From contig NC_092576.1 in assembly GCF_037975245.1 (NCBI RefSeq), positions 4,480,001 to 4,544,000 of the forward strand: DNA of 64,000 nucleotides. The letters run 5' to 3'. The position numbers and the translations under genes are program-made. This document shows positions 1-39,048 of the stretch, piece after piece (positions within the stretch are counted from its first letter, which is position 1; every line of letters begins with the position of its first letter). Below the pieces are notes generated by a model, which did no database searches, had not been told where the DNA came from, and saw only the letters and a list, made by a program, of their open reading frames with translations. The DNA comes from Apostichopus japonicus (taxonomy: Eukaryota > Echinodermata > Holothuroidea > Aspidochirotida > Stichopodidae).

Positions 1-3000
1 CGCACCATCTAGCTGAACATGTGATAAATGATGCCGCCATGTTGGAAGGATTGAACCCATTTGACATACAATACGTATTCCGATTTGCTTGTGGACTTAA
101 TCCTGAAGCGGCCGAAAAGATCATCGCATACGTTAACAATCTCGAAGATGGAGAAAAGTTTACAATTCTTTGTTTCCTGGAACAAACCGGCAGAATAGAA
201 ACAGTTCTCGACACCATACGAAAGATATGCGGTAATGACGTTATCTTTAGTGGAAGTGACAGCAAGCTACTTCAACGATCTACGGTGCAGCTATTGGAGA
301 TGGCTTCCAGTAACGATGTAAGGATAAGCAGAGCACATTCTTGTAATTTGTATCAAATAGCTTATTATAAGTTTCAAAAACTCAAACTTAATTTTGATAC
401 AATGATCGGTGGAATGGATACAAAGTACTGCAGAAATTCCCGGGACCAACCCTCTCCCCTCCTCCCCCCCCCCAAAAAAAAAGCCTAGCCTAAACTTTCC
501 AGTACTATAGAGGGTAGACGCGTGTAAGCCCTTGGCAAGTCGTGGTTCTTCCATCATTTCTATTTATAATGCTACACATTTTGTAAGCCTAGTAATTGTG
601 TATGCAACGTCGATTATATCTCTGGAAGTTCGATTCGTTCATACTAATGTGATATTTGCTTATTTATTATCTTTATTATTGGAATCGGCGACCTTTTTGC
701 GATGCTTTTGTAACCTGGTTGAATCAGGAGTTATGTATCGAACCCAACTAGCATTCATTTGCTTTCTTTTTCAAGATTGAGGTCACAAGGGTTGAACTCT
801 ATGATTGTGTGAAGGCGGTCGATCTAAATCTAGCGAGTCTCGTCCTGAGTTCTGATATCCCGTTTCCTAACCTGAGTTCCATCAATGAATTGGTACTTTA
901 CGAAGATGGAAAAGAAGTGGCCATCCCAAGAGCCCAGGAAATTGTCAATTTTGCAGAACGTTGCGACGGACTTAAGACCCTAGGGTAAGTTATTCCTTCA
1001 ATAAATAGACATTTTCTGGAATCTAGTTAGCAACTAGGGCATGGATAAGACGTGTCATTATAGTATTTCATCGCAAATACTAAGTGTGTTTATATCCTCA
1101 ACGCCTCAGCAAAATACAAAGAGTGGCTTATGAAATTCGACAATTGAGATATTCTTAAATTGGTAACATAAAAGAAGCAAACTATGTCAAACACCTATCA
1201 TTACAATATGACAGTGTTTCCATATCCGAGGCAATGCCATTAATTTTCATAACTCATGAAGTTATTTCGGCTTATGAAGTTCATATCATTTAAAAAATAC
1301 GAATGTCATAATTGGCCCCGTATATTGAAATTTTCTCTAAGGGATTTTAGTTTCATCTAAATATTCTTGAAGTAATAAGCAATTTTGTTTAACAAATATG
1401 TTTATTCGCATGAAATGACTAACTTTCTAATTACAACAATCTGTGCTTTTTTTTTCCAATTTGAATATGTTTCAGTTTTGATCTACTTCAAATGATCTCT
1501 AAATTGTTTCATGGCCGCTGTAAATGTCTAAATCACAACTAGCAATTTTCCCACACAGAGCTCCTCTGACACAGAAGGAAACTCGAGATTATGTGACCAG
1601 AAAGCATGCCAAGTTATGCTATGGCCAATTTTTTAACCAAAGTTTTAGAAAGATTGTCATAGCATTAAGATGAAACAAGACTCTATTTTAATTTCTATAT
1701 TAGGTTCTACCGATGCATTCTGCCACAGTATGTGGGGAAAATTCAGCAAAAGTCTACAGGTATTTTATAACTTTACCATATGTAATAGATAAAAATCGAC
1801 TGATTGTCTTAACCTGTAAAACAACTGGCGTTTTTTTTTTTTTTGCATTAATGAACATCATGCATTTTACTACGAGGTCAAACAATGTATATTAAAGTTG
1901 TTATAACGTGAAAGAGGTCGTGAGAGATACCGTAGTTCTAATATTTTATATTTTTATCCTAAAAATAAATGTTACCGCGTTAATGTACACATTTTCCAAA
2001 CATGTTTCTTTTATGGAAATTAATCTCAATATTCCTAACTAGATCTTACCATTTGGTGGTCTCCTTCAACCGGCTCGCGTTACCGTCTCGGTCAATCTGG
2101 TAAATGGGAGGTCAGTATTACTAATAATTTCACCAAGTGGATACCGTAAAACGGGGTAACTTTGGCACCCGGGGGAATATTGGCAGTTAAGGGGTTTTAT
2201 TAAATCGACCGACTGCCCTCTACTTTCGACAGTGTTTCAATATTGTGATATATTCGTGTGGTGTTTGGGGGGTATAAAGGGTAGAACATTTTTCCAACAT
2301 GATTATTATGATAGATACTATTTGAAATAATTTGTAAACAATTGAAATTAGGAAATAATGTGCTAATTTGCATAAATATTGTGCAAGCTCCCATTGCCGC
2401 TCTAAATATTATTTTTGGTTTTGAGAGTTTTTCTTCGAATCCCAGCCCCTCAATGTCCAAAAAATAAACTTTTGCAAAAAATTGATTGAATATTTTTTTC
2501 CTTCTTTTTTTATACAATTGTTTAAGTATATACCTGCCAAAGTTGCCCCAAATGTAAAAATCATTTTTTTTTGGGGGGGGGGGGGGTTACTTATCACATA
2601 AGTTTTAAGAACACCACATATTTACATCAAATTTGATCCATATAAATATCTAAGAATGCCAATGTTCATTTTAAACATAAGAAACGTGTTTTTTTTTATT
2701 ATTATACTCTTTATTTATTCGACAAATAAGCCTAAAACCTGCCAAAGTTACCCCTTTTCACGGTAGTTAAATTACGTTAAAATAACATCTTCAAAATCAA
2801 TTGGCATGCACGAAGTTTTACAGTCGTATACATAACTTACCGTTTTTATTTTCAATTGATCAAATCAGATTAGATTTATCAGAGGTGTAGGGGGTATTTC
2901 GTACTAGGGTCTATTCCTACTAGCTGGTTATATGGAGAGGGGAGGCTCCAAGTGGAAAGAGCTCTTTGCTGGGGGGGGGGGAGGGGGGGTCCAGGGACGA

Positions 3001-4078
3001 GGCCCCGGAAGCTGCAGCCTTTTCCAGATATATGTTGTACTTTGGTTCGTACCTGTTCAAGCATGAAATACATACCAGATTTTCCCACTTCTCCCAATAA
3101 TATATCCTATACGACAGTTCTCATCATATCATTTCGATCATATCCATTTCAGACAAACGATGGAAGAAAACTATCCGATGACGACTACCAACGAGAGGTA
3201 ATAATTATATCGCTAAAAGAATTTACCTTTAGAATCAGTTTATTAGAAAAAGTCTACAAGAATAAGAAATAAACTCTTAATGAAATGGCAAGTGATTGAT
3301 ATGTGACTATTTTCGATACTGAGGGAATCCTGAAACAATTGTTCTGCATTGCAGTTCTTGATAGAAATCTTCTTTTAATTTTTAGTGGGTCAATCTTTCT
3401 ATTTTTGAACACCTACCGTATGTATCCATACGATTGGTCAGCCGATACTCATAGTTGGTACAGCAACTACTGTTCAAGTCCCACAACCGTGCATCAGTAA
3501 TTAATACTTTGTGTTCATAACACGGTAACATTTGTTACAGGACATGAACAGTAGTTACTGTACTAACTATGAGTTTCGGGAGGATTGGTATCGTACTTTT
3601 CGTCATCAATTTAGGCACTAATGAAAGTTTAACTCTAGAAGGGAACTGCTTTTACAGTAGGATATCTTCCGAAAGACAATTATAGTATAATACAAAGACA
3701 ATTACAGGCGATACTTTGTAGAAATGTCTATTTCAGCTAGTACATTGTTCTTTTGATAATGTATGTACACATGAATGGAATGGCACAAAGTGATGTCATA
3801 TAAATAGCCAATGGACAGAATCAGAGGGATAGGGAAATCAGAAAACTTGATCTACTAATAAACCAGCAAATGTTATTATTTTTCTCTTTTCACAGATCCA
3901 TCACTTCAATGAGCGCCAAAACAGGTAAATGTGGCCATGTGGAGAACAGCCAGTGATTTCAGATTTTCGTGCTCTGTATCTTTCTGTGCATATTTTTAAT
4001 TACTATTATTTTGTTCATCATTTCAGATTGAAAAGTCACAATGTCAGAAATAACGAAGAAGAGGTCACAGAGTTGTAA
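1..4078 (+). CDS. NACHT-family receptor gene, copy A, 3' part (5' cut by window edge)
   Basis: This is the 3' half of a gene paralogous to the one at 16422-25315. Exons read from splice sites and phase: 1-317 (end of the NACHT exon, open to the window start), 776-984, 1704-1759, 2043-2110, 3153-3197, 3896-3924 and 4027-4078 (TAA). The first exon carries the winged-helix/helical end of the NACHT module; LNPFDIQYVFRFACGL aligns with INPFDSQYVYRFACGL in copy B. Exons 2, 3 and 5 are 209, 56 and 45 nt, exactly as in copy B, and all phases agree. The 776-984 exon has leucine-rich spacing (VELYDCV, LSSINELVLY). The tail exons encode WSPSTGSRY, KLSDDDYQRE and a charged end, NNEEEVTEL. No frameshift or premature stop is seen, so the copy looks intact over the visible part. 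Whether it has an Ig ectodomain cannot be seen here. Function is inferred from the NACHT family only. Confidence 0.75.
2142..2765. mobile_element. MITE-like element with 26-bp terminal inverted repeats
   Basis: It lies in the copy A intron right after the 2043-2110 exon. The left end (2142-2167) and the reverse complement of the right end (2740-2765) match at 24 of 26 positions; both carry the core ggggtaactttggca. The ends begin and finish with TA, consistent with TA target-site duplication of a mariner-like or related DNA transposon. A third partial copy of the terminal motif sits inside at 2535-2550. No transposase is readable, so it is non-autonomous. Confidence 0.7.
3441..3580. repeat. 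Inverted repeat (hairpin) in copy A intron
   Basis: Arms 3441-3481 and 3540-3580 are about 41 bp each and pair at roughly 36 positions, around a 58-nt loop. The shared core is tgaacagtagt / actactgttca plus actatgag / ctcatagt. It lies between the copy A exons 3153-3197 and 3896-3924. A folded MITE remnant is the simplest reading. Confidence 0.65.
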
Positions 4079-6981: not shown

Positions 6982-9474
6982 TTTGTTCCCTATTTCCGTA
7001 CTGATAGAAATCGAATTGCTTGAGAGAGATAAAATGTACAGAGTTAATACCTAAGTGTAATCTAACAGTAAGCTTTAACTGTTTAGCAATGAATCGTACG
7101 ATTAGCCACGATAAGTATTTTTAAGTGTAAGAGAGTTTAGTTCACTATCACGTAGGTTCACATAATAAGGCTTTATGCGATGCGTGACAGAAAGTATGAA
7201 ACACGCTCCATCAAAACATTTCCTTTATAGCAATTAGATACTGAAAGTAGTGCGGAGTAGGCTTGTTAACAATACTTCGTTAACTAAAAATATATCTGTT
7301 GTTGAATTGGAAGACAAATGAAAATGAAATACAAACGGATGGGTGGTGTGTTTACCCATTTATTTTCGTTTTTACATAGACTTTGGGACAGACTTGTAGT
7401 TAAAATAAGCAGCATGAGGAAAAGCACTGTTAGAATGATAGTTGGATATGAGTATCAGTTAAAGGAACTATATATAGATGCGATTTCGAGTTCATAGGTT
7501 GGTAAATATATTACAAAATGCATCTAGTACAAGCACGAGTACAAATCCACGAGGCTGAGAACCGTACTAGGACAATTAGTATTCCCGTTGATATTAGTTA
7601 ACATACGATTAAAATGTGCTAAGGGCGAGTATATGAGTAGGCTACTTCATTTTGTAATATAGTTTAAAATAGATTCCAAGATGCCCCGAGTACAAGCACA
7701 AATCCATAGGTGGTGTGGGTATGGGGTGGGGTACAAATAGAGGCAACTTTACTATTTTCAGCACTTGTCATTAAACGATAGAACCCAAAGTTGTCTCTCC
7801 ACGGCGGACTTGTATTACGAGTACAACAACATACATACGAGTACAAATAAAATTCCTGTTGATATGAGAACACATAAGAGTGCAAAGTGCTAAGTACGAG
7901 TATATGAACTTAAGTTTGCAATATAGTGTATATTAGATGACGGAACACCTCGAGCACGAGTATTAATCCATCAGGATGAGTACAAGTAAAAAACCCACAC
8001 AAGTCTGATTTCGAGTACAAGCAACTATACCAAAATGCGAGTACGGTTATGGACTAACTAAAAGGCTGATTACAGAGATATGGGACCTTGAAGTAAGTTC
8101 AACATTTATTCCCACTTATGATCTGTCCATTCACACACTATCTCAACAGAGCTATGAACGAGTGTATACAAGCTGTGGCATTATTAGCAAATAAATCCTA
8201 GCAACTGTAAGGTCGATTCAAGATACTGCTAAGTTGAGGTAGGGTTCTCATCCAGGAGAAATTTAAAAGGTCTTCCAAATTGTTCATATCCCAGAATGAG
8301 CTCAGACTGTCAATTGGGATAGCCCCTTCTATAGTCATGACCAGGAAATTCCAGTTCATGTCTTTTACTCCGAAGGAATATGTCGCATTCCATTATGTTA
8401 CAATGCCTTTTAACACATGAGCAATTATTACACACTAACCAATAGCAAACAGAACAATAACATCAATGCGTTAGTGTTAATATTTCTCAGAGAAGTCTTT
8501 ACTTGAAAAAACATGACATTTGTTCAATGTTATTAAACTTGCTTAAAAAGGAGTTATTTTTCTCATTTTGACAGTATTGTACAAACACCAAGTCCCAAAA
8601 AGGAATTGTTTCAAAATGCGAACCGCAGCTCAAAATGATCAAACTTTGTAAACAACAAAAAGTTGTTACCTCCTGAAAGATTACATTAAAAATCACTGGA
8701 CTGTGAGAAGCAGTGTTTCATCTGTCTGTATGTATTTAGTAAGCATTAACTTAAATATGGTAACTATTGTACTGCTTGATCAAATAGGGAGATGCCGTGT
8801 TTTATGATATCTGCTGTGTTGTCTGCATTTCCAGTCACTCATGTTTTACAAGATGGCATCATGCCATAACACGATGTAATTAAACAGAGGGAATAATCTA
8901 TTGAAGTCAAAGTAATCGGTTCAACAACCAATTGAAGTCATTTTATTCATATCGTAGTTAGAAAGCTCCCCTTTCATATGAATGAAAACAAAACATAACG
9001 AAAGTGAATTGTACTGAACTGAACTGCACTGAACAAAGGGGATTGATATATTTTTCTTGGAATTTCAGCAACAATACATTTCTGAAATGGAGTTATAGAA
9101 CAGTCGCCCCAAAACGTTGCTTTTGTGCTCATCACAAATTATAATACTGTTACGCGATTATCAGTCTCCATAGCAACACGGTCAAGTTTTGGGTGCTGTA
9201 TTAGTATTGTGATTGACCTAGACAAAACACTCAGTTTCATTAATGTCTTAGTGTTACATTCCCTGAGGAATAAAACCAGTTACAATCCATAATAATACAG
9301 TTCTTACATGTATTTGTTAACTGTTAACTACCCCGAGAATAAACCTAATAACAATTCATAACAATTCAGTTGTTAACTGTTAACTCTCCCAAAGATTAAA
9401 CGTAATACTATAGTTACACAACAATTGACATTCAAGCGACTTTAATTTAAGTCTAAGTTATAAGAAGTACAAAC
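6982..9474. other. Intergenic between the two orphan Ig exons
   Basis: Apart from the 7.5-8.0 kb repeat, nothing is firmly assigned. A minus-strand open stretch at 8503-8672 has a fair acceptor and donor and a Cys-to-Trp spacing like an Ig strand pair. It is in phase 0 rather than phase 1 and lacks the second-Cys motif, so it is not called. Confidence 0.5.
7513..7990. repeat. Diverged tandem repeat, unit about 270 bp
   Basis: Two long copies (about 7580-7712 and 7850-7975) and a partial one near 7513-7560 share an ordered set of motifs: gttgatat, gtgctaag, cgagtatatga, aatatagt, gagtacaagcac and aatccat. The segment is rich in the short word gagtacaa. No coding potential was recognised. It lies between the two orphan Ig exons. 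Confidence 0.6.
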
Positions 9475-9808
9475 CTTTGACTAAAAGGAAATGCCTGTCC
9501 TTGATAGTTGCATCACATGAACATTCATACATCCCAGCGTGCTTTATCAAGACATGATTGAAGAATAATGAAAAGTTACTGTAGACGTGTAGGCTTCCTA
9601 CAAAGCGTTCATTAATACGCGAGTCTTCCAGAAAGAGATCAACTCCTTCATAATTCCAGAAACTCTGTTCATGAGTTTCACAACAGCAACAATCAAACAT
9701 CACTGAATCGAATAATGCAACATGGTGAAAAGACACTCCTCCGATAGCAACGTGTAACATAGTCAATAATAATGTACTAATATGAAAAACAGCACCAGGT
9801 GATGACAT
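9475..9808 (-). CDS. Orphan signal peptide plus single V-like Ig domain exon
   Basis: The start is taken at the ATG ending at 9808, which opens a typical signal peptide (MSSPGAVFHISTLLLTMLHV). The frame extends further upstream, but that part has no signal-peptide character. The Ig domain has a Cys-rich first strand (FDCCCCETHE), Trp in QSFWNYEG and the second-Cys motif HAGMYECSC. The exon ends at a phase-1 donor (CAAAG then GTTTGT at 9474/9473). It is similar in build to the exon at 6651-6981, same strand, about 2.8 kb away. The next exon was not identified. The extra cysteines beside the canonical one are unusual. Confidence 0.5.
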
Positions 9809-12800
9809 TTTAAAACTATTTTCACCTCTACAAGTTAAAAGAAAATTACAGTAGATGTCCGACATAAGCCACGATGAATTAATTGAACAAATTAATAACA
9901 TGCTATCTGGCAATGTTTATGGTCCTACTCGTTCATGTTAAGATTTTAAGGTACAATATATTGTACATTGTATTTCGTAGACATTTCACCCTCTCTGTTT
10001 GTTACATGAAGATGTAGATTGTGCTAGTAGAAAAACTGCTTTGTTATTCACTTTCGCTTTTCTACATTGCTGAATTTTTATGGTGAGAGAAAATAAATAG
10101 TTTTGGAAACTCAATACGTGTGAGGAGGAGACTCAATGTGGTCCTTATTATATAAAAGAGCAATTGTTCAACCCCTTCAACCTACTTTAAAGGGATATGT
10201 CAGACAATTTACACGGTTTATTGATCAAAAGAATAGTTCACAGTGTTATTTGAAAACCCATCTCAATTTGTTTTCCCTACCTTGGGATAAATGTGTTTGA
10301 GATGTAATCCATTTTGACAGGCTAAGCGTCACCTTGCTCCAGAAATGTGTATCACATTGATTGGCCGGTGATGTAACCATGTGACAGATGTTGTATAGAA
10401 GGCTTTACTTTTAGACTGATAATCTTGTAATTGGTGTCTCCTAGAATAATAGTACATTTAAAATGTTTGCTTTGATATTAATATTCTTTGTTGTTTGGAA
10501 TTCACAAAATAAAACTCTATTTTCCTAAAACATGTTCAGTTCCGGTGGCCTAACTTTTTGACCTGATAAACCGCTGGATGCTTTACACGAATTATCAGAA
10601 CATTTAATTAACAATTCACATATTTACAACACAATATCCTATGAGGTAGTTCTCTTGACCTATAAGGATGCAAAAAAATGTTCAGTAATTCTGCCAATCA
10701 ATCAGTCTGTCACACCAGACGATTCCTTTAAGTATTAAGAACAAGGAAATGTCAAGAGACAATACTAAGAGCTAAGTCTTTATTGGATAAGCAATTAACT
10801 ATTGAAACGAAACTTATCATACAGATATGATGTAAAGAAAAAAAAGTCATGTTTGGATGGCTCCTGTGATGTTCTGAAAGATATGTGTATAGTGAAAAGA
10901 TATTACGGTTATTATAAAACAAAAAACTGTTACCATGCTACTATACAACATTTCAGTGTTTTCATGAATGTATGCATGATGTTCATTGTGAGTATTTGTA
11001 CAAAATTACGAATAACTTCATAGGAACTTCATGTCTAGTAAGGTTTAAGGGCACTTTTAGAACATTCAAAGACTGATACATTTTTACAATTTTCTGAAAG
11101 ATACACATACTATTGGCCTATAGTGTTCACTGAAATACTCAATATATTTAACGTTGCCGTGTTTATGTCAACAACAACAATAGCACATGTTTATGTATCT
11201 TCACATATGTATTTACATTACATATATTTCGTATGCAGATTTCAGATATACTTCTGAATATTATTATCATGCTTATTTACCCCTTTGGCGTTCCATATTT
11301 TAAGCCTTTTCTGAATTGACCATGTGGGTGGTATTAAGGCCTTGAATAGTTTCATCTTATCGTTCATGAAGAAGACTAATCTACTGAAGATTCAAAGTTA
11401 AATTTTATTTTTATTGGTGATTTGGGAAAGGGTTCCACTGAACAGATTCATGCAAAAAAAGCAAGATGTTATACACACATGTAACATAGAAAGGATACTT
11501 AATACATACTACTGTACCATGCAGTATATTTAAGAATTTGTGAATCAGTCCTTTCATCTCAGTAGTACTTATGTCGTAGCACCGTATCTTGTTCAAAGGT
11601 CAACCTTACATATATAAATGCAAAAGCACCTTCACTCGATTGAAGAGTACCGTGTCCCTGAGGGAAGTTATAAGGTTGACTTTGGAAAAGTTTCCTTTCC
11701 GTATTTAAATGCTGCAAATGCCACTTTCAAAATTAGTTATAAGTAGGTATTGTATTTGTTGTTGGGAAAATGTAATCATAATATAATATTTCACTTCCTT
11801 ATGGGGCAAAGATACACTTAACAAATCACTTAAATCACATGATATAATATTTCAGTTTCATATGGGCAGAGATTAACTTAACAACTCACTATAAACATCC
11901 AAGTTATATAGATAATAAGTTTCGTTTTACCGAATTTGAGATACACATTTACATCGCTTAGTTTATTTCGATGTTTACAATAATTCTTAAGCACATTATA
12001 CAGAAGCTTAAGTATAACAATTTCGTGAATTCAGTTGTTGTCACTTTAGCTGAATGCTTGAAAAACAACGAAAACATAATGTATAGGCTAACCGCTTCCG
12101 TATATCCCCAGTGTGTGTTTTACAGTAAATAGGCTCATTATGCTATTACTCTGCACTTTACAACGATTTGCAATGGTGTTTTATATTCTTCACATACATC
12201 ACACATAAGCTAATCGGGACTGTACAAAATGCACATAGACACCAAAAGCAGACGAGACGGGGTTCCTTCGCAGTCTCTTTGCCGTTTTTGCACGTAACAA
12301 GCGCGTGACATGATAGGAGCTTAAGAGGGACCGCCGTAAGCAATCCATAAGACTCTAACAGTAGATCTTCGAATATTAGTCAGGGTTCATGCATTTCTGG
12401 TACATCAAAAATAAATATTTACGACATTACCACCCAAACATAAGCAATTATTCAAAAATGTTACTGTAAAGGCCCGTTATAATGCCGTTCCTTTGCGTAC
12501 GAAACTCTATCTGTTTGAACTGACAAAGGGATAAGTAATATGTTAGTAGTACCTTGCAGCACATCACATGACGCCCCTATGATTGTTATGTTTAACCACT
12601 GTGGAACGAGACCTCCAGACAATATATAAGTCGATGTTTTCATGTGTGCATTACACTGAATGAAATATTACTCTACTGCGCAATCATGAACTTTGGCATG
12701 TAATAATGACGGTGGTGTACGTGTGTTTATCTATATACGGTTCATGGCGTGTTGTTCGACGTGCATGATGGGAATGGTCGATTTCCTACAGAGCCTATGT

Positions 12801-16421: not shown

Positions 16422-19400
16422 ATGGAGCTTATCCGGAGCCTACTTTATTCGGCAGTAGCCCTGGTGACTGCTACTTATTTTACACAAGGTAAGTGATATT
16501 GCTCACTCTGCAAAATATCCTACAGGGCCTAACCATCACTGATGGGTATGCATAATGATGATAACGATGATGACGATGGTGGCCACGACGACGACAATGG
16601 TGATGACGATGACAAAGACGATAATGGAGCGTGTTATGGCTCACTTCTTCTATCCGATCTATCGTATTACTCTCCCAAGCCCTCACTCTTACTCTGCAAT
16701 GGCTATGCGAAACATTTCTAAATAAACCAAGGATCTAACGACAGAACCATCCTACTCCTCTTTTTTTTCTAAACCTGAATCATTTTTACTATAGATGGTA
16801 ATGTTATTGGTTAAAAGTGTTATTCGTCTCACTGCTAGTTGGAGTACATACACCAACATTTATAAGCATTATCCATCATCACTAGATACTGCATTTTTTA
16901 AATATTAAGTTATATATTAAGTCTAGCGTCTGATATCTGATGCAGTGACTATTATCTGAGGGAAGGGGGGGGGGGGTGATTCACCCCATTGTCACTTTAG
17001 TGTGAATATTGATGCAGTGCGCTTGTAGGTTTCGAAGATAGAATCAGCCGTGATACAAACAGCTTTCTATTTATAGTCTATGGCTACAATGGCTCGTTAT
17101 ATAGGATACATGGGATTTCCTTTCTTAAATACTGGAGGCTGTCGTTGGGTACATTGCCACTTTGGTTCCAAATGTTATATTTCTGAGCGTATATCGTTGC
17201 ATAGGTTTTACTGGGTGGTGAAGGCTGTGATGTACCACGTATAATTGTAAACTCAATTGTTTCTGTACACCATTGTGTAGGTTTATTGGATGGGGAGGGT
17301 TGTGGGACGCCACAATACCTCGAGCTTGGAGAGACTGGGATAATCAACTGCGCCTTCCCGAATGATTTCGTTGCTATATTTTGGGTGAACTCTTCTTATA
17401 ATGGATTTGAAGAAGCGTTGGTGAGACTGAATCAAGATGGCACTACCGAAGACGGATACGCTCCGGGAGAGTTCAATATCCACGACAACGGTTCCTTGAT
17501 AATAAATAACGTCAGATTGGAACATGAACATTTGTTTACGGCAGTCTTGTTTCGAGATTCGAGTGGAAATTATGATAATTTTATTGTTCGAGTTATAACA
17601 ACAGGTAAGGAATTTAAATCACATTCATTTCCCCCAAGTTTAGAGATATCGTCCTTCGCATTACATGTATATATGACGTTGAGCAGTCTTCGTACACATC
17701 TAAGCCAAGACATTATATTTACCAAATATAAAGTATAACTAAACACGTGTAAGTTGACATTATTACTGCTAATGATCGAATGTTAATTTAACAAAGCAAC
17801 TGACTGTAACTTTTGTTTCCTCATTTATTTCATGCAAGTGTTTGATGAAGTAATTTTTCACAAATCATACTTCTCTACTTAATTCCTTCCTCAGTTCAAC
17901 CATCACAGACGCGTCCTTGCATCAACAATTGTGATTCTGAGGCGGAAGTACGTTTCACGCAATTGAATGAAGATGCAATGATTGTTTGCTCCGTGGTTAA
18001 CTCCAGACCAGCAGTGGAGTTAAAACTGTCATTGAGAACCGACAGCGGAGACAGGAATATTTCTTTTGTAACCAACGTGACTAGTTACGATGTCACATAT
18101 TCTACATTTGTCTCCACTGTTGATGTATTTCGACACTCGTCCATGCTTGCTTTACTAGTCTGCTCGGAAGTAAGCACACCAAAGAAGTTAGAGAATAGTG
18201 AATATTCGTTGTTGGTTCAAAACATTGATTTCAATCTGCAATCGGAATCACACGAAGAAATGAATATTAAAAAAGGCAATGATGTTGTACTTCATTGCTC
18301 AGGTGAGAACCAAAAACAAGACAAATACATAGTTTGGAATCACAAAGCCAATCTCGAAGAACAGGGTACCGCTATTGTGTATGCTGTGTATGGTGACGAC
18401 TCTTTCATCAGTGAACCTTCAAATGGATATGAGTTGGGTGCTAATGGTCTATTGAATATTCATCATGTCGACATCGATCACGAGGGTATTTACAGCTGTT
18501 TATCTGGAAATGGTGTTGACGGCGACTTTCGTAACTACAACGTGAGGGTGTACGGTGAATAATTGACATATTTCTACTGTTTCGATAACAACAACTTTAA
18601 AAATCTACAACTGAAAACCGAATGACGTCAGTAGCAATCAAACTATATTTGAAGTTAAAGCACGTCATAATGAAAAGAAACGAAAATATGTTTGCAATTT
18701 AATAGATTGTGATATTATATAGTTTGTAACAAGCGAAAACATGTGCTCTGGCAAGCAATGGCAAGCATTGGTAAATGCAGCATATTTTTGTTGTTGTAAT
18801 GCAGCATATTATTAATTTTTAATTGATGGTAGTTTGCCGCCTTAGTAGGGATACACAGTTTCTGCATAGACTGGTAAAGCAATGCTAAGAACAAACTTAG
18901 CCACATTGGGTCATATACACCGCGGCTCACCATTCATGGGAAGATTTTATAAGGTTATCCTCAACACCATACAAGATTGTGGAAATTTGGATATGGTTTG
19001 TTGTTGTTGTATAATTTTGTTTATTGACTCGTTTCATTAAATAAAAATAATTCATCGTGACGTTTCAATATTTCTTTTTTCTTTTCTAACAAATTCAACT
19101 AATGAATTACAGCGACTGCGTCTCCAGTTGTCAGTGGTTGCAGTCCAATGCAGTACTGTGTGCTGAGTACAAGTAGAGGAACTGGTACTTTGACATGCAA
19201 GATAGAAGGAGTTCGTCCGAAAGTTCAACTTGAATTTCGTGAAGTTAGAGAGAGTCAGTCTAGAAAAGTCAATTTCAAACCGCCAGAGACAACAATCACT
19301 GTCAAGGGAAACTTGTTCGACGTATCTGTGACGTCAGAATACGAAGTGTTAGAATCAGTCTCGGACTCACAAATCACCATAGAATGTGCAGTTGTTGGCG

Positions 19401-22400
19401 CCAGTATTGACTTAGATTACTTCGGCTTACCAGCATTATTCGATCTCCTTATTACCTCACGTAAGACTATCGTCAATTTGCGTATGAAACTATTGTATAT
19501 TCTTCATTTTGTCATTTAAAAATATTGATGAAATCATCAATCACCACAGACATCACCATCATTTATAATCATAATCATTACCACCGTAACACTTCTCCAA
19601 TCTCCGTGCAAACACCGTTTTTATTGTCAACGTCACCTTCATCTTGTCTAAAATTTATGCGTAATGTTTTAACTAATTTGATTCTGAAATCTACATGTCC
19701 AATTATACTTTATTTTCTTATAATATTTGCTCACACAGCAAATGATGTCCCAGTAGTAACACCCGAAGGCGGAGGATTACAGTTTTTGTGGTTACTTATC
19801 CTTCTTCCTAGCTTGGTTTTACTGGTGGGATTATTATATTTTTGTAAAGGTAAGTAAAGAAAGTACTGTTAAAAAGACAATGAAAATGTTGTTGCATGGT
19901 ACATTGTTATGAGAAATCGCGAAAAAAAAAGGATATGAATTTATTGTAATTTAAATTATGGCGTAGGATACTGTCAACACATTACTAAGTATGCATGAAC
20001 ACACGAAAATATGTTATTGATTGGTTGATTGACTGATTTATCGATTGATTTATTCATGAACACATTCTTATATCTAACACCAGGAAGTAATGATAATTAA
20101 AGCAGTTAGTGCAAGTTACTAACTAATCTTAAATGTCGTTTTTCTTCTTAGATAGCCGTTACAATATTTACGTTGTTGTCTGACAACCGTTTCGCCCGGA
20201 AATTAGCTTTATGAACTGGTACAAGCATTGATGATACTATTAAAGTAGCATTTGCTTCTTTTCAATTTCAGTATTTGTTTGCAATGAGAACGAAGTTTTT
20301 TTAGAGATTAATATAATTATTTTACTTTATAATTACTTGCAGAGAAAATCAAGACCAGGATCCCACCAATAGGTGGACGTGATCCAGAGGTAGTAACTAT
20401 AATATTCACTTCGTTTATATGATTATTTTCTTGCCGATCAAGTGTTCTTTAAACAGTGTCTCCTTAATTAGTTATTTGAGTTCATAAATGATTCGATTTC
20501 GATTGATTTATGTCAAATAATACTTTTTAATTTATAAAAATGAATAACAAGAAAATCAAAGTTAAAAAACATTTTGTGTACATTTTCAACTTTTTTCAAC
20601 ATTTATTATTTTTAACAAAATATCCTGCTCTAAGATGTCCTTTTATTCAAAAAGGTAAATATGAATTAACTATAAAACTATGTTTATTTTTTGGTATTTC
20701 CAGGGATTCCCGATGTTACCAAATGTTTCACCAGGTACGAACATCTTTGTTAAAGTCTCGTATTAACCCTACTGTCACAAAAAATATGCAAAATATGATT
20801 TAAAACGTTTCATAACGCAGTCAATGTGAAAACGAAATACCTATCAGTCATCAAAGTAACATGTTAGCATAACATAGGTTGTGGTCGATTGGTATTACCA
20901 TGTTGATATCCCAATTATACCACGCATGGTGTATGTTTAGAGAATAATATGAATTTTCAGTGCTTTACGTCAGAGAAATATTCAGGGAAGAATCAAGCGA
21001 ATCTTGAAACATCTGTACGTTTTACAGAAAATGGGCCAGTCGAAAAATGTACTAAAAGTTGTTGGAAAAATCCCCGATAATAATGCAATCATGTCGGGTA
21101 TGTTTAACAATCACGATACTCTTCTAAAAACGAACAACAATGGTATATACCCAATCATCGGCATTCGAAGTGACACAAAAGATGTTAACTTTCTTTTGTT
21201 ATATGTAATGTTACCATGCTTTTCACCCCTTTTCATTGTTCATCTCAGATGTGATTCAGAAGTTCATTCAACAACTTAAAACCAAATATGAAGGTTTTTA
21301 CAACGCCGTGTACCCGGTGCCCTATATCAGAGACAGAATGTATTGCGTCAACACAATATTTGTTGAAAGTGGCATACAAGTAATGAAGTCACATGACAGG
21401 TGGGCATATTTGACGTCATATCAAGACATCTTGAAGAATGCTGTTAATCGATCTGCAAGGATAATTCTTGAAGGAGAACCTGGATTTGGCAAATCTACTC
21501 TTTCCCTACAATTAGTGTATGATTGGTGTAAAGGAATATCTTCTTCGCCTCTAGCAAATGTACAGATTGTGATTTTCCTTCGATTGCGACAAGTAGGGGG
21601 TGTGACGTCAATCGCACAAGCTGTCAAACAATTCATTTTGCCAAGAGATTCATCTATCAAAGAAAACGATATTCAAACTATACTTCAGAATTGTTCTTCA
21701 ATAGTCATTATATTAGATGGATTTGATGAGTATCCTGATAAGGATAATGACGTCGTCATCTCTGAATTTAAGAATATCATTAAAGGCGATATATTTCAAG
21801 ATGTCTGTCTTCTTGTGACCACGAGAGCAAAATGCATGCCAAAAGAATACGCTCCTCAATCGAAGCGTATGCGATTGGTTGGGTTTAATAGCGATGCCCA
21901 ACGTTCATATATCAGAAAGGCAGTGGTCGTTGATAACCCCTCGAAAGGAAAAGCCATTTTACGCCGTTTAAATGAAAACACGATTTTGAGTGATTTGTGT
22001 CAGATTCCACTATTTTTTGTGTTGTTTGCGCATATCACTTTTGAGGATGAACAATTTGAAAATTTTACTTCAGTTTCTACTTGTTTTGGTTACGTAATCG
22101 GATGTTTTCATGAACATTTAAGACTTAAGTCAGATGACAAAAATGTTAAGCCTTACCAGAAAGATCACAAAAGTCTTGACAAAGTCGCTTTCGATGCCCT
22201 TCATGGGGAACTCCAACAATTATCGTGGAGTAAGGATAATTTGTTGGAGCATCTTGGAAAGGAATTTTATTCTTACTACGTGAAACTTGGTATGTTAATT
22301 GAAGAAGAGGTGCAAAATAGAGACCCTCTCAATTCAACAAGCTTAAGTCACTATCAAACAGAGGTTAGATTTTGTCATAAAGTCTTTTGTGAGTGGTTTG

Positions 22401-25315
22401 CAGCACATAACTTTGCTGACATTGTATCTGAAGATGACACGGTTCTGAGCAAAAAGGGAATCAACCCATTCGATTCGCAATACGTATATCGTTTTGCTTG
22501 TGGGTTAAAACCTGAAGCTGCTGAAAAAATCATCTCTTACGTCAGAGATCTCGAGGATGGTGACAAGTTTTCAATTCTCTGTTTTCTGGAGCAAACAGGA
22601 AAGACAGACACGGTTCTGGAGACAATCAAAACTATTTGTCAGTCTGAAGTGATCTTCGATGGTAGTGATAGCAAGTTACTACAGCGATCAACGGTTCAGC
22701 TATTAGAGATGGCTTCCACTAATGGAGTAAGTTGTATATCACTGCAACAGGCAATACAATATAATGCATATTTATCCGGAAGTTTAGATGTTCTTACGTA
22801 AAAGAGAGGCATCTTGAGAATGTGTTTGCCTTTTCTCTCTCTTTTTTTCTTTCTTAATTTATTGGAATTGCATTATGCATGAAATATCGTCATGATCACT
22901 TGGATATAATCCCGTTTTACATCCCATTCACCTCACCTGACCATATCTATGATCTGCTATAAGTCTCTGCATATATTTGTGGATATTTCTCGCATCATAT
23001 TAAGCTTGTTCCTTAACAGATCGAGATATCCAGGGTGGAACTCTATGATTGTGTGAGGTCGGCTGACTTGGACCGTGGCCATCTGGTACTAAGCTCTGGC
23101 ATTCACTTCCATAAACTCAGCTCCATCAACCAATTGGTGATATATGACGAGGGAAAGCACGTGATATACGAGAAAGCGCGGGGAATTATCAACTTCGGAA
23201 TGCTTTGCCACGATCTTCGGACGTTAGCGTAAGTGATGTAGCCACACCTCACCGCTGATCATGACGTCATCTGAACGTATTGTTTGTACTCGTTGTAAAT
23301 CATCTATGTAAACGTTGCACATACTGTTGATTATGAAGGCCTATTAATAGTGCTAATTACTCGATTTGTTCAATTGGTTATGTTTGTTACAAATTTATGT
23401 GTTTTATTTTCATGATAACAATAAGCTCTTGCATTATATCGTCTTACACAAACAAAATTCATACTTAGGACTCTCAATTTCCCTCCAACCCCTCGTAAAT
23501 CCCTGGTATTTAAACTTTGTAAGATTTACAAATGAGAATGCCATGTTTCTTCTACAGGTTCTATCGTTGCATTATGCCTCAGACTCTTGGAAGACTTCAA
23601 CATAATTTCAGCGGTACAGTATCAACAGCATTATATATGGCCTATCCATCCGTAATAAATTTAAAACTAAGTGACAACGTTCAGACCAAAGTAACCATTA
23701 GACTTTTCAAAGAAATATTATTTTTTTTTCGTTTTCTTTTGTCTGTTTTTGTTATCGCGATTACAAATACACTTGCCAAGGTTTCTTCCTTAAAACAAGA
23801 CGCCTTCTTTATCCAAACAACATCAGTAGACTCCTTGTTCAGGGAAGTAGGAGCCAAGGTAAATTAAAAATCGCCCCTCACTCCTACCCTCAATGAATTG
23901 TTAAAGAAAGAAACATCAAACAAATTCCTTAAGTCTTTGTACATAAAATGACAAACATGAGACGGGGAAACAAGGGTTAAGACCCACTTCATACCCACAG
24001 ACATTTCAATTTTAATTCATGATCTCGACTATCGTTGGTCTATTTCAATGGATTGTTTGTAATTCATATTTTACATTATTTTGTATCTATTTAACAGTTG
24101 TGTGGTCGCCTTCTACCGATACCCGTTACAACCTTACGCAATCAGGAAAATGGGAGGTCAGTACAGCTTGTGGTTTCTAATCATTTATTTTGATCTACTA
24201 ACATATAGTACCCACTATCTTAAATCGACATTATATGTTATGCGTTTAATTACTTCTTTTACTCTTCTAGACAACAGAAGGGAAGAAATTATCAGATGAG
24301 CAGTACCAACTCGAAGTACGTATCATAACTATTATTTTTTTCTTCGTAACATTTAATGTAACCAATACATATTTATATGTGTATTCCATATAAAACACAA
24401 AAAGGTAGTAACCTAGAGAAGTACGGAAGTCAAATACCCGTTTTAAACACTACACCCTTAAAGATATTTACATTTGCACTGCTATGGAAACGGGATGCGC
24501 AGACAATAGAAAGAGTTCATCATAAGTCCGGGTGAACCTACGTGATTTTAATCTGATGAGAATGGGGTCGGGGAGAGGGAGGGGCTGCAGGCCCGAAGGA
24601 TGTCGTGAATTATGGGATCGATAATTCTCTCCAATTAAGGCGAGCACTTCGATACCTGTTGTATTTAATATGTATCGAAAATTAATTGCTGTCTTTTTTT
24701 TGACGGAGGTTAAACATGTTTAATGCAAAGATAAATACACAACCCCTCCCTTCTTCTCCCATCTCCAGCGTCCAGGCTTTCATAGTAATTACCGTCTTGT
24801 TCTTTCTTTCAGGTGCGTAAAATTACACAACAGTCTCAGTAAGTATTATAATCAATCATTGACTATAAGTACTTCATCAATTCATGTTACAAATCCGCAG
24901 GTGCATGGGTCGTCTTTTTCGAGAATTGATAGATATAGAGTGATTTTGATATTAGCTCTAGGCATTCAGGCCTGACGAAAGAGACCAGGTGTGAATTAGG
25001 AGGACCCGCAAAAATATGGGATGAAGAATAACTTGTAACCTTTTTCTCGTTCGCATATATACAATATAGAAAAGTTAATACCACAAAGAAGGCTCACGAA
25101 GACACAACTTTATGCCCACTTGCATAGGCTAGCTTGAAACTTCTTTTGGTTCAAACTATCACCCCGTCAACCCACCCACTACGACTAGTTACCAATACTA
25201 TGGTGTGAACTTGAACGAACATGTTTTATTTATAATCACTTTGCTTTAATGTCCTATTAGATCTAGAGATACGAATGGCCATAAACCAGGAACTGAAGCT
25301 GATACTGCATGCTGA
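16422..25315 (+). CDS. Transmembrane Ig-NACHT receptor gene, copy B (full gene model)
   Basis: Exons by phase: 16422-16488 (signal peptide MELIRSLLYSAVALVTATYF), 17281-17604, 17895-18554, 19113-19460 (four Ig domains), 19739-19849 (transmembrane), 20343-20389, 20704-20734, a tentative 20821-20855, about 20986-21097, 21249-22726 (NACHT), 23020-23228, 23558-23613, 24098-24156, 24271-24315, 24813-24838 and 25261-25315 (TGA). The chain stays in frame, about 1,220 aa. Predicted topology: extracellular Ig stack, one membrane pass, cytoplasmic NACHT. NACHT proteins are signalling ATPases, usually soluble; an immune receptor role is inferred. The weakest links are the exons 20704-21097: omitting 20821-20855 breaks the phase unless 20704-20734 is also skipped. 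Copy A at 1-4078 repeats the 3' exon structure. Two separate genes (an Ig membrane protein and an NLR) remain possible without transcripts. Confidence 0.7.
16545..16625. repeat. GAT/GAC-rich microsatellite
   Basis: Interrupted gatgac repeats in the first intron of the Ig-NACHT gene. They produce an artificial His/Arg-rich open frame on the other strand. Confidence 0.8.
17281..19460 (+). CDS. Ig ectodomain exons of copy B (four Ig-like domains)
   Basis: Three phase-1 coding segments encode four Ig-like domains. Ig1 (17281-17604): first Cys in INCAF, Trp in IFWVN, but the usual second Cys is replaced in HEHLFTAV. Ig2 and Ig3 share one exon (17895-18554): Ig2 has MIVCSVV and LLVCSEV; Ig3 has VLHCSG, YIVWNH and the classic HEGIYSCLS. 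Ig4 (19113-19460) has TLTCKIEG and ITIECAVV. Ig1 resembles Ig3 (V-like, with a ...NGSL / NGLL... strand), and Ig2 resembles Ig4 (RPAVELKL against RPKVQLEF), so the ectodomain is two repeats of a V-like/C-like pair. Several N-x-S/T sites suit an extracellular location. Binding partner unknown. Confidence 0.75.
19739..19849 (+). CDS. Transmembrane exon of copy B
   Basis: A 111-nt exon, phase 1 at both ends, encodes a short juxtamembrane stretch (VTPEGGG) followed by a hydrophobic helix of about 22 residues (FLWLLILLPSLVLLVGLLYF) that ends in Cys-Lys. The positive residue at the end and the Arg/Lys-rich next exon (EKIKTRIPP) suit a stop-transfer with the following part in the cytoplasm. Confidence 0.75.
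21249..22726 (+). CDS. NACHT ATPase exon of copy B
   Basis: One 1,478-nt exon encodes a whole NACHT module. Walker A is GEPGFGKST (codons 21473-21499), Walker B is ILDGFDE (near 21713), and sensor-like VTTRAKC follows. The winged-helix region has CQIPLFF, then CHKVFCEWFAAHNFAD, a pattern common in animal NLR proteins, and a helical end (QYVYRFACGL). The segment before Walker A (YEGFYNAVYPVP, CVNTIFVESG) resembles the pre-NACHT linker of invertebrate NLRs. All catalytic motifs are intact, so ATP binding is expected. The exon begins in phase 1 and ends at a strong donor, GGAGTAAGT, in phase 0. By family knowledge, NACHT modules oligomerise on activation. Confidence 0.9.
23020..25315 (+). CDS. 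LRR-like and short C-terminal exons of copy B
   Basis: Six exons follow the NACHT exon. The 209-nt exon (23020-23228) has leucine-rich spacing (VELYDCV, LDRGHLVLSS, LSSINQLVIY, CHDLRTLA) and may be a degenerate LRR unit. The next five are 56, 59, 45, 26 and 55 nt and encode FYRCIMPQTLGRL, WSPSTDTRYNLTQSGKWE, TTEGKKLSDEQYQLE, VRKITQQ and a short end (TEADTAC then TGA). Copy A has the same exons at 776-4078 with the same phases, and most lengths are identical. That conservation is the main evidence that these tiny exons are real. Their function is unknown. Confidence 0.7.
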
Positions 25316-28225: not shown

Positions 28226-29984
28226 GAAAGTGTGGATATGATTGGACTCCTTCCAGAGCCCATAAATGGAAATAGGTACATCATAACCCTATGTGACTAT
28301 TTTTTCAAAATGGCCAGAGGCTGCTGTAAGAGACAAAACAGCAAAAACTGTTGCAAACTTTCTGTTTGAAACAATGGCCAGGTAATATCCGTTTACTTTT
28401 GTTTTTCTTTACATAGCGTATTTTTTAAATTAGTACATAGACCTGCATTTGCACTGTTCAACCTGTGACCCAGAAAGCGGCCAAATGGTTACAGGTATTT
28501 CTTAAACTCATCTTTAGAGTTGTTTGTAAGTTTATGCCAATTAAATGTAAGTGGGATACCAGTCAGTGCGTCCAAGACCAGAAGTTAGGCAGTGCTCTAC
28601 TTGCACTCTTTTTACACTGCCCAAGGTCCAGTATTATTAATTCAGTGCTGAAATAATCTCCTGATTAAACCATGCAGCCAATCTGAACAGTACTCGTAAT
28701 CAGTACCTTAACAACTTATTTAGAGTTTTCCATTTATTTAGATTTGGGTGCATGAGAATTGTCATTTCAGACCAAGGACGAGAATTGTTAAACAAGTCCC
28801 TGTTTGACATGACAGGGGTGGGCCACAGAGTATCCTACAGCTACCACCCACAGACCAATGGGCTGGATGAAAGATTCAACCAAACTCTGCAAAGATCACT
28901 CATCAAAGTTGTCAACAAAAACCAAGATCAATGGCATGAAATGTTATCTTCTTTTCTCATGGGGTACCGTAGAGCAACACAGGGTTCAACAGGTCTTTCT
29001 GCTTTTGTTGTGATGCTTGAAAGGTAATCTCTCAATTTGATTGGACCCCTTCAAGAGACCATATATGGAAAAAGGTACATCATGACCCTAAGTGACTATT
29101 TTCAAAATGGCCAGAGGATGCTGCTGTAAGAGACAAAACAGCAAAAACTGTTGCAAACTTTCTGTTTGAAACCATGGCCAGGTAATAATTCAAACCTACC
29201 ATTGCTGGATAGAGATTTACATTTGTTAAGGCCATATACGGAGAAAAAGCAATCAGGGACAAGAGAGTTTGGATAAATCCTGCATAGCTACACCAGTCCT
29301 CTATAGGATAAAATCTCATTTGACACATCCCAGGTCCTGGGAAAGACTGCTAAATAGAGGACCATCAACAACTCTAGTCACAATACCTAACAAACAGATT
29401 AACTTTGTATATGGTACACTCTTCAGCAAGTACAAAAGATGAACATTCATGAAACTATAAAAGCATGCCAATGAATTTTTTGGTTGCATGGCCTTAATAG
29501 TGGAAATAAAATACATATACAAAAATTAATATTCAGTCAACAAAGTGTTTTGAATACTTGATTAATTTATCTTCATATATCCAGAAAGCCATTGTTACTA
29601 GGTGGGCATGGAAGACTCAATTGTCCAACCAGAATCTCCTACCGCTGCGATGCACAGCGGGAGAGGGTTTTTCAATTCGTGTCACAGTCGCGGGTCATAA
29701 TCAAAGGTGTTGTGAAGGAAAATATTGGCAAAGCCCAAGAACGGCCAAAAAAGAAAGAAAAAATCGATAAAAGGCACCAATCAAAAAAGGTAATTACATA
29801 ATACTATGCTGTGCATTGAAAACTGCACTGTAATGAAATGAATGGCATTATATGCATTGTATTATGATGTTTACGTATATATGCTGGATTTTGTTTTATT
29901 CAGAGCTTCAAAGTTGGTTCCATTGTTCTTGTACGGAATGCTAGAAAGGATGCCCGAAGAGGAGGGAAGCTCGATTTGTGTTAA
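28226..29984 (+). pseudogene. Decayed, intron-split integrase (Ginger/Ty3-type family)
   Basis: Four segments read as exons with splice signals. 28226-28381 is the first integrase strand region (VDMIGLLPE), with one extra base that shifts the frame. 28742-29023 has ISDQGRELLN, then YHPQTNGLDERFNQTLQ, carrying the second catalytic Asp and the Glu; they are 32 residues apart, shorter than the usual 35. A segment ending 29789 reads KENIGKAQERPKKKEKIDKR. 29904-29984 has FKVGSIVLVRNARKDARRGG (C-terminal DNA-binding part), then a stop. Introns sit at AG-GT boundaries that rejoin the family pattern. HPQTNGLDER rather than HPQTNGQxER resembles Ginger DNA transposons and GIN/KRBA2-like host genes, which can contain introns. 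With a frameshift and no reverse transcriptase nearby, it is a relic. Confidence 0.7.
29041..29181 (+). pseudogene. Second copy of the first integrase exon, frameshifted
   Basis: This repeats most of 28240-28381 with a few substitutions and ends at the same donor (GCCAG then GTAATA). It lacks one base in the T-run where the first copy has an extra base nearby, so both copies are out of frame, but differently. The duplication placed an exon 1 copy downstream of exon 2. Confidence 0.75.
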
Positions 29985-32496: not shown

Positions 32497-35370
32497 TCAG
32501 GTCCATGGTAAAAAATTGCAATGGATAATCAAACCACTCACAAAGTAAATAGAAAAGTACATCAAAATGAAGACCGACCAAGGACCATTTCGAAACCAAC
32601 TGCAGATTTTTCTCATAATGCCAATCACACTCTGAGGGCCTTGGGTATTGAAAAAGTTTCCATCTGGACCTTTGGTTACAAGATGGGCCGCAAATACAAG
32701 AAGAACTGGGCACGATGAGAACAGGAAACGTGTGAGCACCTTCAGAGGAGGAAGCAAAGTTGAAAAGATTTTAATCTTAAATGAAGAGGTAACAGAGCAG
32801 AGAAACATGAGAATCACTTTACTTTGCCCCCAAAAAATAATTCATGGTACAGAGACTGCTAGAGTTTTCAAGACTATTAAGTAATTCAATTAATCAAACA
32901 TACATATAAGTCAGTAGTGACCTGTACACTGCTAGTGTCTCCTTTCATACTGCTTGCTAAAGTGATTCGAGCACACTTGTGAAAATATCCATCATCAGTA
33001 TATTATTCCCTGTAACTATTGCAAAGTCACAGTTTAACATTCAAACTATTTCTTCAATTCTGTACAAACTTACCTCAATATGCATGAAGAAGATGCCAAA
33101 CAACAGCAAGAAAGACAGATGAGCAAGATGTAAAAAGTTCTCTTCGTTAAAAAATCCCTGACTCTTGGCATATTTGTCCCAAGTTTTCCGGGGAGGTAAT
33201 AAACCCACCCATCGTACATACTCCCAGTTCTGTTTGCAGTACGTTGTTATCGCTCTTACTGACAGGACGATTATTGGAAGTGCTAGGAAAAAATTTGGAA
33301 TCTTTCGAAGTTGAAAGTAATTGAAGAAACCAACTTCCCAAACTTCAGCTTGTATGTTAGAGTAAGGAAGTGGGAGTGACTTTTGACACCAGGCAGGCGG
33401 TGTGGAAGACGGAATGTAATTAACTTGGCTGTTCACTGGAAGAATGTACTCAAAAATTGTTGCTGGAAATATAAACCTCTGAGAATGACAGACTTGGCTA
33501 TAGGAGTACATTTGAAAGAGCAGAAATGGACCAAAGTTTAGGGCTGCCAGGCCAGTCAGGAAGATTGCAATCTCTAGTGAAAGCAAGGCAATGTATAGAC
33601 AAACATTGGTCTTTCCTGCGCTCACTGCTATAAGAGTATCCCGAGTGAGCTGTTGGATCCAATGATAGATTAAGAAACCAAACGAGACGATCCCATTGGA
33701 CCTAGTAGCCGAAGATAATCCGAACAGAACCGCACCAGTTATCAACCGTTTGTCTTGATACGCTAGCATGCCGAGAAAGGTTAGGAAGCTAAACAGGCTC
33801 TCTGAGTAAGTTGCAGACATGAAAACGCTGGCTGGGTTGAAGCAGAACAAAACAGCAGCGGCTGTAGCCATGTTGGCATCCTTTAAGAGACGTTCTGCAA
33901 GCTTCTGAAGGAGACTTGCAGATAAAACAAAAAGGAACGTGTTTGTGACAAATGACGAGATCATTAAACATGACCGGAATGATATCACCGTACTAAAGGG
34001 GAAGTGAATCACCAAGGCAACAGTCCTAACGATTGCTGGAAACAATGGAAAGAAAACAAACATCTGGGGTTGGGTGTAGCCATCTTCTGATATTGTGAGG
34101 AAGTAAGAGCCATCCCACTTACTGAAGCCTTCAAAGAGATGATGAATCACTCTGTCTCCTTCGGTCGGATTCTTAAGAGGCTTCAGTCGAAAAGCTGCAG
34201 CATTATGGTCTGTGATCAGCCCATTGAAGATAACCTGTAATGTAAAGGGAAACAATGTATCTCAATGGTGTACAACATTACTATCCAAGCAGGGAATATC
34301 TTATCCAGTATCGTAGTATAATATGTTTGCAAAATGGTAGTTAACATTGCATCTATAAAACTGACATTATAAGTGCAAAAGATGTATAGTATTAGTATTG
34401 CCATACAAAATGCTCTGCAAAGTGGTAGTTAACATCACATCTATACAACTAACATTAAACACTGCAAATGATAGCACTTTTTGTACAGTATAATATGTAC
34501 AGAAGAGGAATGGTATTACTATTGGTAAATTTGCTATTTATACGAGACAAAACTCAGAGCCACCAAAACTGATATTTAACAAAGTTTGAACACAAATTCT
34601 TTTCCTGGAGAAGACCTGTAACTCTGTCTTCCATTTTTATTTTGACTTTCAACATGTTACTAACAACAAAGATGTTGTAGGCCTACATAGCATCAAGGCT
34701 TTTCAACACTTTGTATAATGGGAGCTAATCTTGAATAGGAATTTATCAGGAGGGACATTCTATTTCATCCTCAATTAATCATTGTTCAACATACTCCTGA
34801 TCTCGTGTTCCTCTCCATGGCAGGGGTTGAAACATTTCCCTAATATTGGATGATCCCATTTAGACCTACTTAAAAATTAGGGTATTATAAAGCAACAAAG
34901 TCGTTTGTCCCTTGATAGAACACCTTACCACTATAATTATGTAGAAATACCTTATAGCCTAAGGCCTAACATTAATTTTAATTCATTAAAAATAAGGGGT
35001 GTGAATAGTACTATAGTAGTTCTCCAAATCATTTGAGGATGACAAAGAACTTTTGGCCTAGCTCTAAACAATAAATGGAATAATCAAAGAGGTGAAATAT
35101 AAATTTCGATCCGATATTTCTCTAGTTGATAAGGAGGGCACCGTATTAGCACTAGACTAGACTAGTTTGTTTTATCATCTTATTTTCGATCATGCAGTAT
35201 TCTTTCGTGTAACTGGTGCCAGTACATTCTGAAATGTATGCCTAGGTCTATGGATGTTGAAAATAAAAACATTTTACTTTCTAGAATATAATTATAATCA
35301 ACAGGCTTACCTGTATAATCCACGCAAAGGCCCTCGAAATAATTGCTACTTTCACCACGACCGAAACCAT
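32497..35370 (-). CDS. PIGV: GPI mannosyltransferase 2
   Basis: The enzyme adds the second mannose, from dolichol-phosphate-mannose, to the GPI anchor precursor in the ER lumen; it is a multi-pass ER membrane protein. Three exons: 35311-35370 (20 codons from ATG), 33074-34234 and 32497-32739, all joined in phase 0, giving about 487 aa (human about 493). Family marks in order: DHNAAAFRL near the N terminus, FSKWDGSYFLTISEDGY, the conserved WD-x-x-x-F segment facing the lumen, NPASVFMSATYSESLF, ATRSNGIVSFGFL, PPAWC, VGFFNYFQLRKIPNF, and the ending IIHCNFLPWT. Both splice junctions rebuild conserved text (IQ-VIFN and MHIE-VLTRF). No damage is seen. It is followed downstream by repeats and has FICD upstream on the same strand, 3.6 kb away. 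Confidence 0.95.
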
Positions 35371-38853: not shown

Positions 38854-39048
38854 GAAGGTGACCCTATCCCTGGTCCCCTCATCCCCCATCTATAACTGTC
38901 ACATCTTTCTTGTCCTTAGAAGGTGACCCTATCCCTGGCCCCCTCAACCCCCATCTATAACTGTCACATCTTTCTTGTCCTTGGAAGGTGACCCTATCCC
39001 TGGTCCCCTCAACCCCCATCTATAACTGTCACATCTTTCTTGTCCTTT
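38854..39048. repeat. Three-copy 65-bp minisatellite over the FICD stop codon
   Basis: Units begin at 38854, 38919 and 38984 and are nearly identical (gaaggtgaccctatccctgg at the start, ttcttgtcctt at the end). The third unit contains the last 13 codons and the TGA of FICD on the minus strand, so coding sequence was copied into the 3' UTR. The unit is not a multiple of 3. Confidence 0.9.

Follow-up and report, generated by a model that had tools for sequence, protein, structure and literature searches.

A gene of Apostichopus japonicus, very probably AjNLRC4, predicted to encode a single-pass Ig receptor with a cytoplasmic NACHT module

We analyzed a stretch of 64,000 nucleotides of the Apostichopus japonicus assembly (C16:4480001-4544000, here called the window) and conclude with high confidence that a gene within it is AjNLRC4 or an allele of it, predicted to encode a single-pass surface receptor in which an Ig ectodomain is joined through a linker of two mini-exons to a cytoplasmic NACHT module without a CARD or recognizable LRR. 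A preliminary description of this DNA knew of no characterized protein of this build; however, AjNLRC4, which is essentially the window protein, was already published in 2021 (PLoS Pathog; PMC8699970), and its accession is given as MN607598 in a later report (PMC11932488, 2025). The Ig-transmembrane (TM)-NACHT architecture is thus known, and the departure of a surface Ig receptor with an anchored NACHT from the usual cytosolic NLR has already been reported for AjNLRC4. Added here are the genomic context, i.e., the placement of related Ig exons ahead of NACHT exons at dozens of loci, which makes the idea of a receptor repertoire testable, and a discrepancy in printed primers that touches the published actin mechanism.

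Gene model and predicted domains

The gene model consists of 14 plus-strand exons (16422-25315) with AG/GT borders, which join in one frame from the ATG at 16422 to the TGA at 25315 and encode 1,171 amino acids. This spliced translation bears out the earlier account of a plus-strand chain that stays in frame from ATG to stop, while the length of about 1,220 codons given there was too high. A 70-nt candidate exon at 21028-21097 was left out of the model because it disrupts the frame. The signal peptide was called from hydrophobicity only, with exon 1 supplying the hydrophobic leader that had been described before, and exons 13 and 14 were placed by splice signals alone. A tandem paralog lies upstream of the window gene (L010 4677-9999 plus window 3-3200, first exon not included), its NACHT starting about 22 kb upstream of that of the window gene. 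The features of both genes within the window are as follows.

3..3200, plus strand: 3' exons of the tandem paralog, i.e., the NACHT end at 3-332, then 776-982, 1699-1746, 2042-2116 and 3135-3200; 5' part in L010
16422..16488, plus strand: exon 1, start codon ATG followed by a hydrophobic leader, taken as signal peptide from its hydropathy
17281..17604, plus strand: exon 2, Ig1, V-like, weak in the window gene; site of published primer EX-F at 17304
17895..18554, plus strand: exon 3, Ig2 and Ig3 (Ig3 a V-set); qPCR primer sites at 18344 and 18513; LRTD at aa 177-180
19113..19460, plus strand: exon 4, Ig4, C2-like, weak in the window gene; EX-R primer site at 19117
19739..19849, plus strand: exon 5, transmembrane helix, phase 1-1; siRNA site spans the exon 4/5 junction
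20343..20389, plus strand: exon 6, cytoplasmic linker mini-exon of 47 nt; the tandem paralog has 56 nt here, with the phase unchanged
20704..20734, plus strand: exon 7, cytoplasmic linker mini-exon of 31 nt in the window gene and tandem paralog alike
21249..22726, plus strand: exon 8, NACHT ATPase plus adjoining C-terminal region
23020..23228, plus strand: exon 9, post-NACHT region; no Pfam match; counterpart in the tandem paralog
23558..23613, plus strand: exon 10, paralog counterpart at E 0.028
24098..24156, plus strand: exon 11, paralog counterpart at E 4e-05
24271..24315, plus strand: exon 12, weak paralog counterpart, E 0.036
24813..24838, plus strand: exon 13, 26 nt, model only
25261..25315, plus strand: exon 14, final coding exon, ending in TGA; model only

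The conceptual protein was searched with Ig and NACHT profiles, a check that the preliminary description had proposed, and returned one clear match of each kind in Pfam: a NACHT at aa 600-753 (E 1.3e-17, 64.6 bits vs a cut-off of 26.7) and a V-set at aa 250-349, corresponding to Ig3 (E 1.3e-10, 41.8 bits vs a cut-off of 26). The NACHT had been called intact, and its Walker A and B residues are indeed kept, the P-loop residues G75, G78, G80 and K81 and the Walker B residue D156 being invariant in all seven aligned NACHT exons. At E up to 1, Pfam searches of the whole protein detected neither the N-terminal CARD of the NLRC subfamily nor any LRR family, such as the C-terminal LRRs of bona fide NLRs (NACHT plus LRR), so that by these two marks the protein belongs to neither group; exon 9 searched alone gave no match at E up to 0.1. 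By these profile matches, the predicted protein is a member of the STAND/NACHT ATPases and of the Ig superfamily. Kyte-Doolittle hydropathy gave one strong TM helix at approximately aa 480-502 (peak of 2.56 at 482-501), in keeping with the single membrane helix claimed earlier, and a weaker second hydrophobic stretch (1.70 at approximately 774-793).

Of the four Ig-like domains described before, Ig3 stood, with its V-set above cut-off, while in the window gene Ig1 and Ig4 fell below cut-off and Ig2 was not seen. When Pfam was searched exon by exon, the Ig1 exon gave a weak V-set match (E 0.016, about aa 37-112) that ranked below two unrelated weak families, the Ig4 exon matched C2-set_2 at E 0.099, and Ig2 had no match of its own. 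Across the family, counted at E up to 0.01 with the window exon as a member, V-set was found in 14 of 21 Ig1 exons and C2-set_2 in 8 of 21 Ig4 exons, so that both domains are somewhat better supported; the window's own exons were not among these, its Ig1 exon matching solely a calicivirus coat model at chance level. At the same threshold, 24 of 25 Ig2-Ig3 exons matched V-set and 9 matched C2-set_2, the latter counted anywhere in the exon. The Ig4 exons used as a PDB profile query gave no match up to E 0.1, and the weak Pfam matches together with conserved cysteines hint at an Ig fold for this domain.

Identity with AjNLRC4 and membrane topology

Published AjNLRC4 has an Ig-like domain at 31-132, an Ig domain at 251-353, TMs at 483-503 and 776-795, and a NACHT at 600-757 (PMC8699970). 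Compared to the window protein, the positions of the second Ig domain, the TM and the NACHT agree within 4 residues, whereas the first Ig-like boundary corresponds only to the weak Ig1 match noted above. Because the TM-to-NACHT spacing is equal, published AjNLRC4 should have the linker length given by exons 6 and 7. The LRTD site, reported at aa 177-180, is found at aa 177 of the conceptual protein, i.e., at the published position.

The published oligonucleotides point to the same gene. Both qPCR primers, qF and qR, match the window gene exactly, EX-F and EX-R each differ from it at one base, and the siRNA has 2 mismatches on the spliced exon 4/5 junction vs at least 4 on unspliced window DNA, for a total of 4 mismatches over the 111 bases of these five oligonucleotides. 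The mismatches suggest either that the published allele differs or that it derives from a copy absent from the A. japonicus assembly used here. They also speak for the window gene being a very close paralog rather than the published gene itself, which we consider unlikely, since in this assembly EX-F matches a single site with up to 3 mismatches allowed and qF a single site with up to 1, both at the window gene (genome-wide uniqueness covering these two primers), and since the nearest paralog found shares 42-48% identity with it across the Ig exons. From the landmark coordinates and primer matches, the window gene is very probably AjNLRC4.

A third published primer pair, IN-F and IN-R for the NACHT fragment, had no match in the window gene, and this printed pair, foreign to it, was not used to decide AjNLRC4 membership. 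Each primer has one genome match within 2 mismatches, an exact one, on contig C14 (C14:1474164-1474188 in L050 and C14:1477150-1477174 in L053), the two sites facing inward about 3 kb apart and, we infer, lying in one gene. IN-R falls in an exon encoding a p62/SQSTM1-type UBA domain (PF16577, E 8.2e-18; sequestosome-1 structures, E 2.7e-13), and IN-F in a Pro/Gly-rich frame with no Pfam match. The main text of PMC8699970 does not mention p62 or SQSTM1, and the discrepancy may be an error in the printed table. The discrepancy matters because the published interaction of the AjNLRC4 NACHT with actin (PMC8699970) rests on the IN fragment; if the printed primers were actually used, this link needs re-testing.

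Vertebrate NLRC4 is a cytosolic protein with a CARD and LRR. Its NACHT region (8fvu and others) is homologous to that of the window protein (E 7.7e-19 with the family profile), the two proteins differing in that Ig domains and a TM are present in the latter, in which CARD and LRR were not found. This homology bears on the number of membrane passes. The AjNLRC4 paper states two TMs, the second at 776-795 (PMC8699970), and the moderate hydrophobic peak at 774-793 is in line with that statement; however, this stretch is part of the conserved NACHT exon and, with the family profile, aligns to a segment of NLRC4. As NLRC4 itself is cytosolic, our analysis favors one TM, and we regard a two-pass protein as quite improbable. 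A second A. japonicus protein, AjNLR-new (PIK48001.1; PMC13133943), resembles the window protein in having Ig domains, a TM and a NACHT in about 1,200 aa; by its description, with which the window protein was compared, it has 1,197 aa and a reversed topology, with the NACHT outside.

Linkage of Ig and NACHT exons across the genome

The joining of the Ig and NACHT halves had been inferred in the preliminary description, and it is now supported by the published AjNLRC4 positions, the frame of the tandem paralog and the linkage seen among paralogs. Genome-wide searches covered 671,581,487 bases in 35 contigs. With aa 1-529 as the query, 84 matches were obtained, Ig2-Ig3 exons accounting for 54 of them; searches for NACHT scored 106 and 87 matches, with a union of 162. 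Linkage was counted to the nearest scored NACHT within 20 kb, and because only the best candidates were scored, the counts are lower bounds. For 36 of the 54 Ig2-Ig3 exons, the nearest NACHT within this distance lies downstream in the same orientation; none has it upstream or on the opposite strand, and the remaining 18 have no scored NACHT. Reading the DNA 3' of two of these 18 revealed a 37th linked exon (L051). In 1,000 random placements, the mean number of linked pairs was 0.65 and the maximum 4, compared to the 36 observed. Random placement does not model the co-clustering of Ig and NACHT families on shared scaffolds, and for this reason the absence of opposite or upstream arrangements among the 36 is the better control.

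The exons between the two halves were examined as well. For the tandem paralog, a single frame runs from the TM exon (132 nt) through linker exons of 56 and 31 nt into the start of the NACHT. All seven loci of the TM test (the window, L010, L011, L013, L014, L015 and L019) allow a phase-1 TM exon between Ig4 and NACHT; they were chosen for Ig4 and NACHT matches, L013 and L019 being without Ig1-Ig3 in the stretch examined. The test initially omitted L012, L016, L017 and L018 of ten regions; when L017 and L051 were checked later, a phase-1 TM exon was also possible in both, L017 (weak Ig4 match, E 1.8e-4) having nine phase-1 candidates over 6.9 kb vs four on the reverse strand. The scan is permissive, as L011, L013, L014, L015 and L019, five of the seven, also showed phase-0 or phase-2 candidates, often over the same helix. 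On the reverse strand, which served as its control, six loci had no candidate and L019 had two. Of ten loci for which no NACHT was scored, four had a phase-1 TM candidate in the 113-925 bases past Ig4 and six did not; two of these six, L026 and L032, gained one when more DNA was included (L051 and L052).

These data bear on the possibility of two neighboring genes, in which the TM exon would be the end of an Ig membrane protein and a soluble NACHT gene would start near 21249. The gene model is built on genomic DNA, and at L052 (C11:3738400-3743400) a related Ig ectodomain and TM exon have no NACHT within 5 kb downstream, so the halves can exist apart. Nevertheless, published AjNLRC4 is one protein with the same spacing (PMC8699970), every one of the 36 Ig2-Ig3 exons with a scored NACHT within 20 kb has it downstream on the same strand, and the tandem paralog has conserved the linker mini-exons, which stay in frame there. 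Given the paralog linkage and the in-frame TM and linker exons, we attach very little probability to separate genes. Altogether, the analysis confirms, at the level of genomic sequence, one predicted receptor that combines, in a single reading frame, an Ig ectodomain with one membrane helix and a NACHT.

With at least 37 of the 54 Ig2-Ig3 exons followed by a NACHT exon, at dozens of loci on several scaffolds, we lean modestly toward AjNLRC4 being one of dozens, and probably more, Ig-TM-NACHT genes that would form a germline repertoire of single-pass surface receptors with the NACHT inside. If so, published accounts with two TMs or with the NACHT outside need re-testing. A. japonicus genes with Ig, TM and NACHT are mentioned in the plural in PMC13133943, and the 2017 A. 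japonicus genome paper describes the NLR family as expanded and clustered; a count or map of the Ig-TM-NACHT family was not found in the literature searched, which included few subscription papers. In another sea cucumber, Chiridota heheva, NLRs with V-set domains have been reported (PMC8913654), and a TM helix is not mentioned in the available text of that report.

Divergence among paralogs and possible function

The tandem paralog is 66% identical to the window gene in the NACHT and 42-48% in the Ig exons. It is one of five paralogs, out of six compared with the window gene, in which the Ig exons were less alike than the NACHT exon, the exception being L011 (Ig exons 24-31% vs NACHT 25% identity). 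The recent pair L014/L035 is reversed, with the Ig2-Ig3 exon 84.8% and the NACHT frame 75.7% alike. Faster evolution of the ectodomain than of the NACHT is therefore likely, though not uniform across the family, and since the L014/L035 pair contradicts a receptor that is more variable outside, it lowered the probability that we give to the repertoire.

For L014, dN/dS was 0.36 in Ig2-Ig3 (vs L035), 0.52 in Ig4 (vs L036, a sister copy nearly identical to L035) and 0.32 in the NACHT frame (vs L035, the genes being measured stop to stop with some intron included). Among Ig2-Ig3 pairs with more than 90% DNA identity, dN/dS was below 1 in all eight with synonymous change; L040/L041 had non-synonymous change alone (dN 0.006, dS 0), L035/L036 had no change in this exon, and the NACHT frames of L007/L008 gave dN = dS = 0.006. 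Between the window gene and its tandem paralog, dN/dS was 0.24 for Ig4, 0.09 for NACHT and 0.12 for exon 9, with high dS, and Ig1 and Ig2-Ig3 were saturated. As these values are mostly below 1, both halves appear to be mostly maintained as protein.

In a separate observation, contig C16 carries two Ig-NACHT copies about 0.4 Mb apart, at 14.83 Mb and 15.23 Mb (L007/L008 and L035/L036), that are identical in Ig2-Ig3 over 217 codons and 99.4% identical in NACHT frame DNA over 530 codons. This near-identity could stem from duplication in the very recent past, from gene conversion or from an effect of the assembly.

The ectodomain of AjNLRC4 has been reported to bind LPS, peptidoglycan, mannan and bacteria, and the protein to dimerize and be internalized, with knockdown lowering phagocytosis (PMC8699970). 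In the mechanism that we propose, the Ig ectodomain would bind bacterial surface polysaccharides, the ligand would gather receptors into clusters, and the clustered NACHT modules would exchange nucleotide, oligomerize and recruit uptake or death machinery. The nucleotide step is suggested by the intact P-loop and Walker B residues, and the NACHT is most likely a cytoplasmic module that is clustered in this way, as judged from the predicted protein. A complex of the AjNLRC4 Ig domains with caspase-1 has also been reported (PMC11932488); it is hard to reconcile with the predicted topology, because after endocytosis of the receptor its Ig domains would be expected to face the vesicle lumen.

The window holds several other features. 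A minus-strand open frame at 9461-9916 looks Ig-like by eye and has no Pfam match at E up to 0.01, and a fragment of a transposable-element integrase core lies on the plus strand at 28665-29024 (rve_3, E 8.5e-05, below cut-off). Further downstream, two neighboring genes lie on the minus strand: the one at 33044-34261 is, by Pfam, of the PIG-V mannosyltransferase type, and the one at 39012-40097 encodes, again by Pfam, a TPR-Fic protein that resembles FICD.
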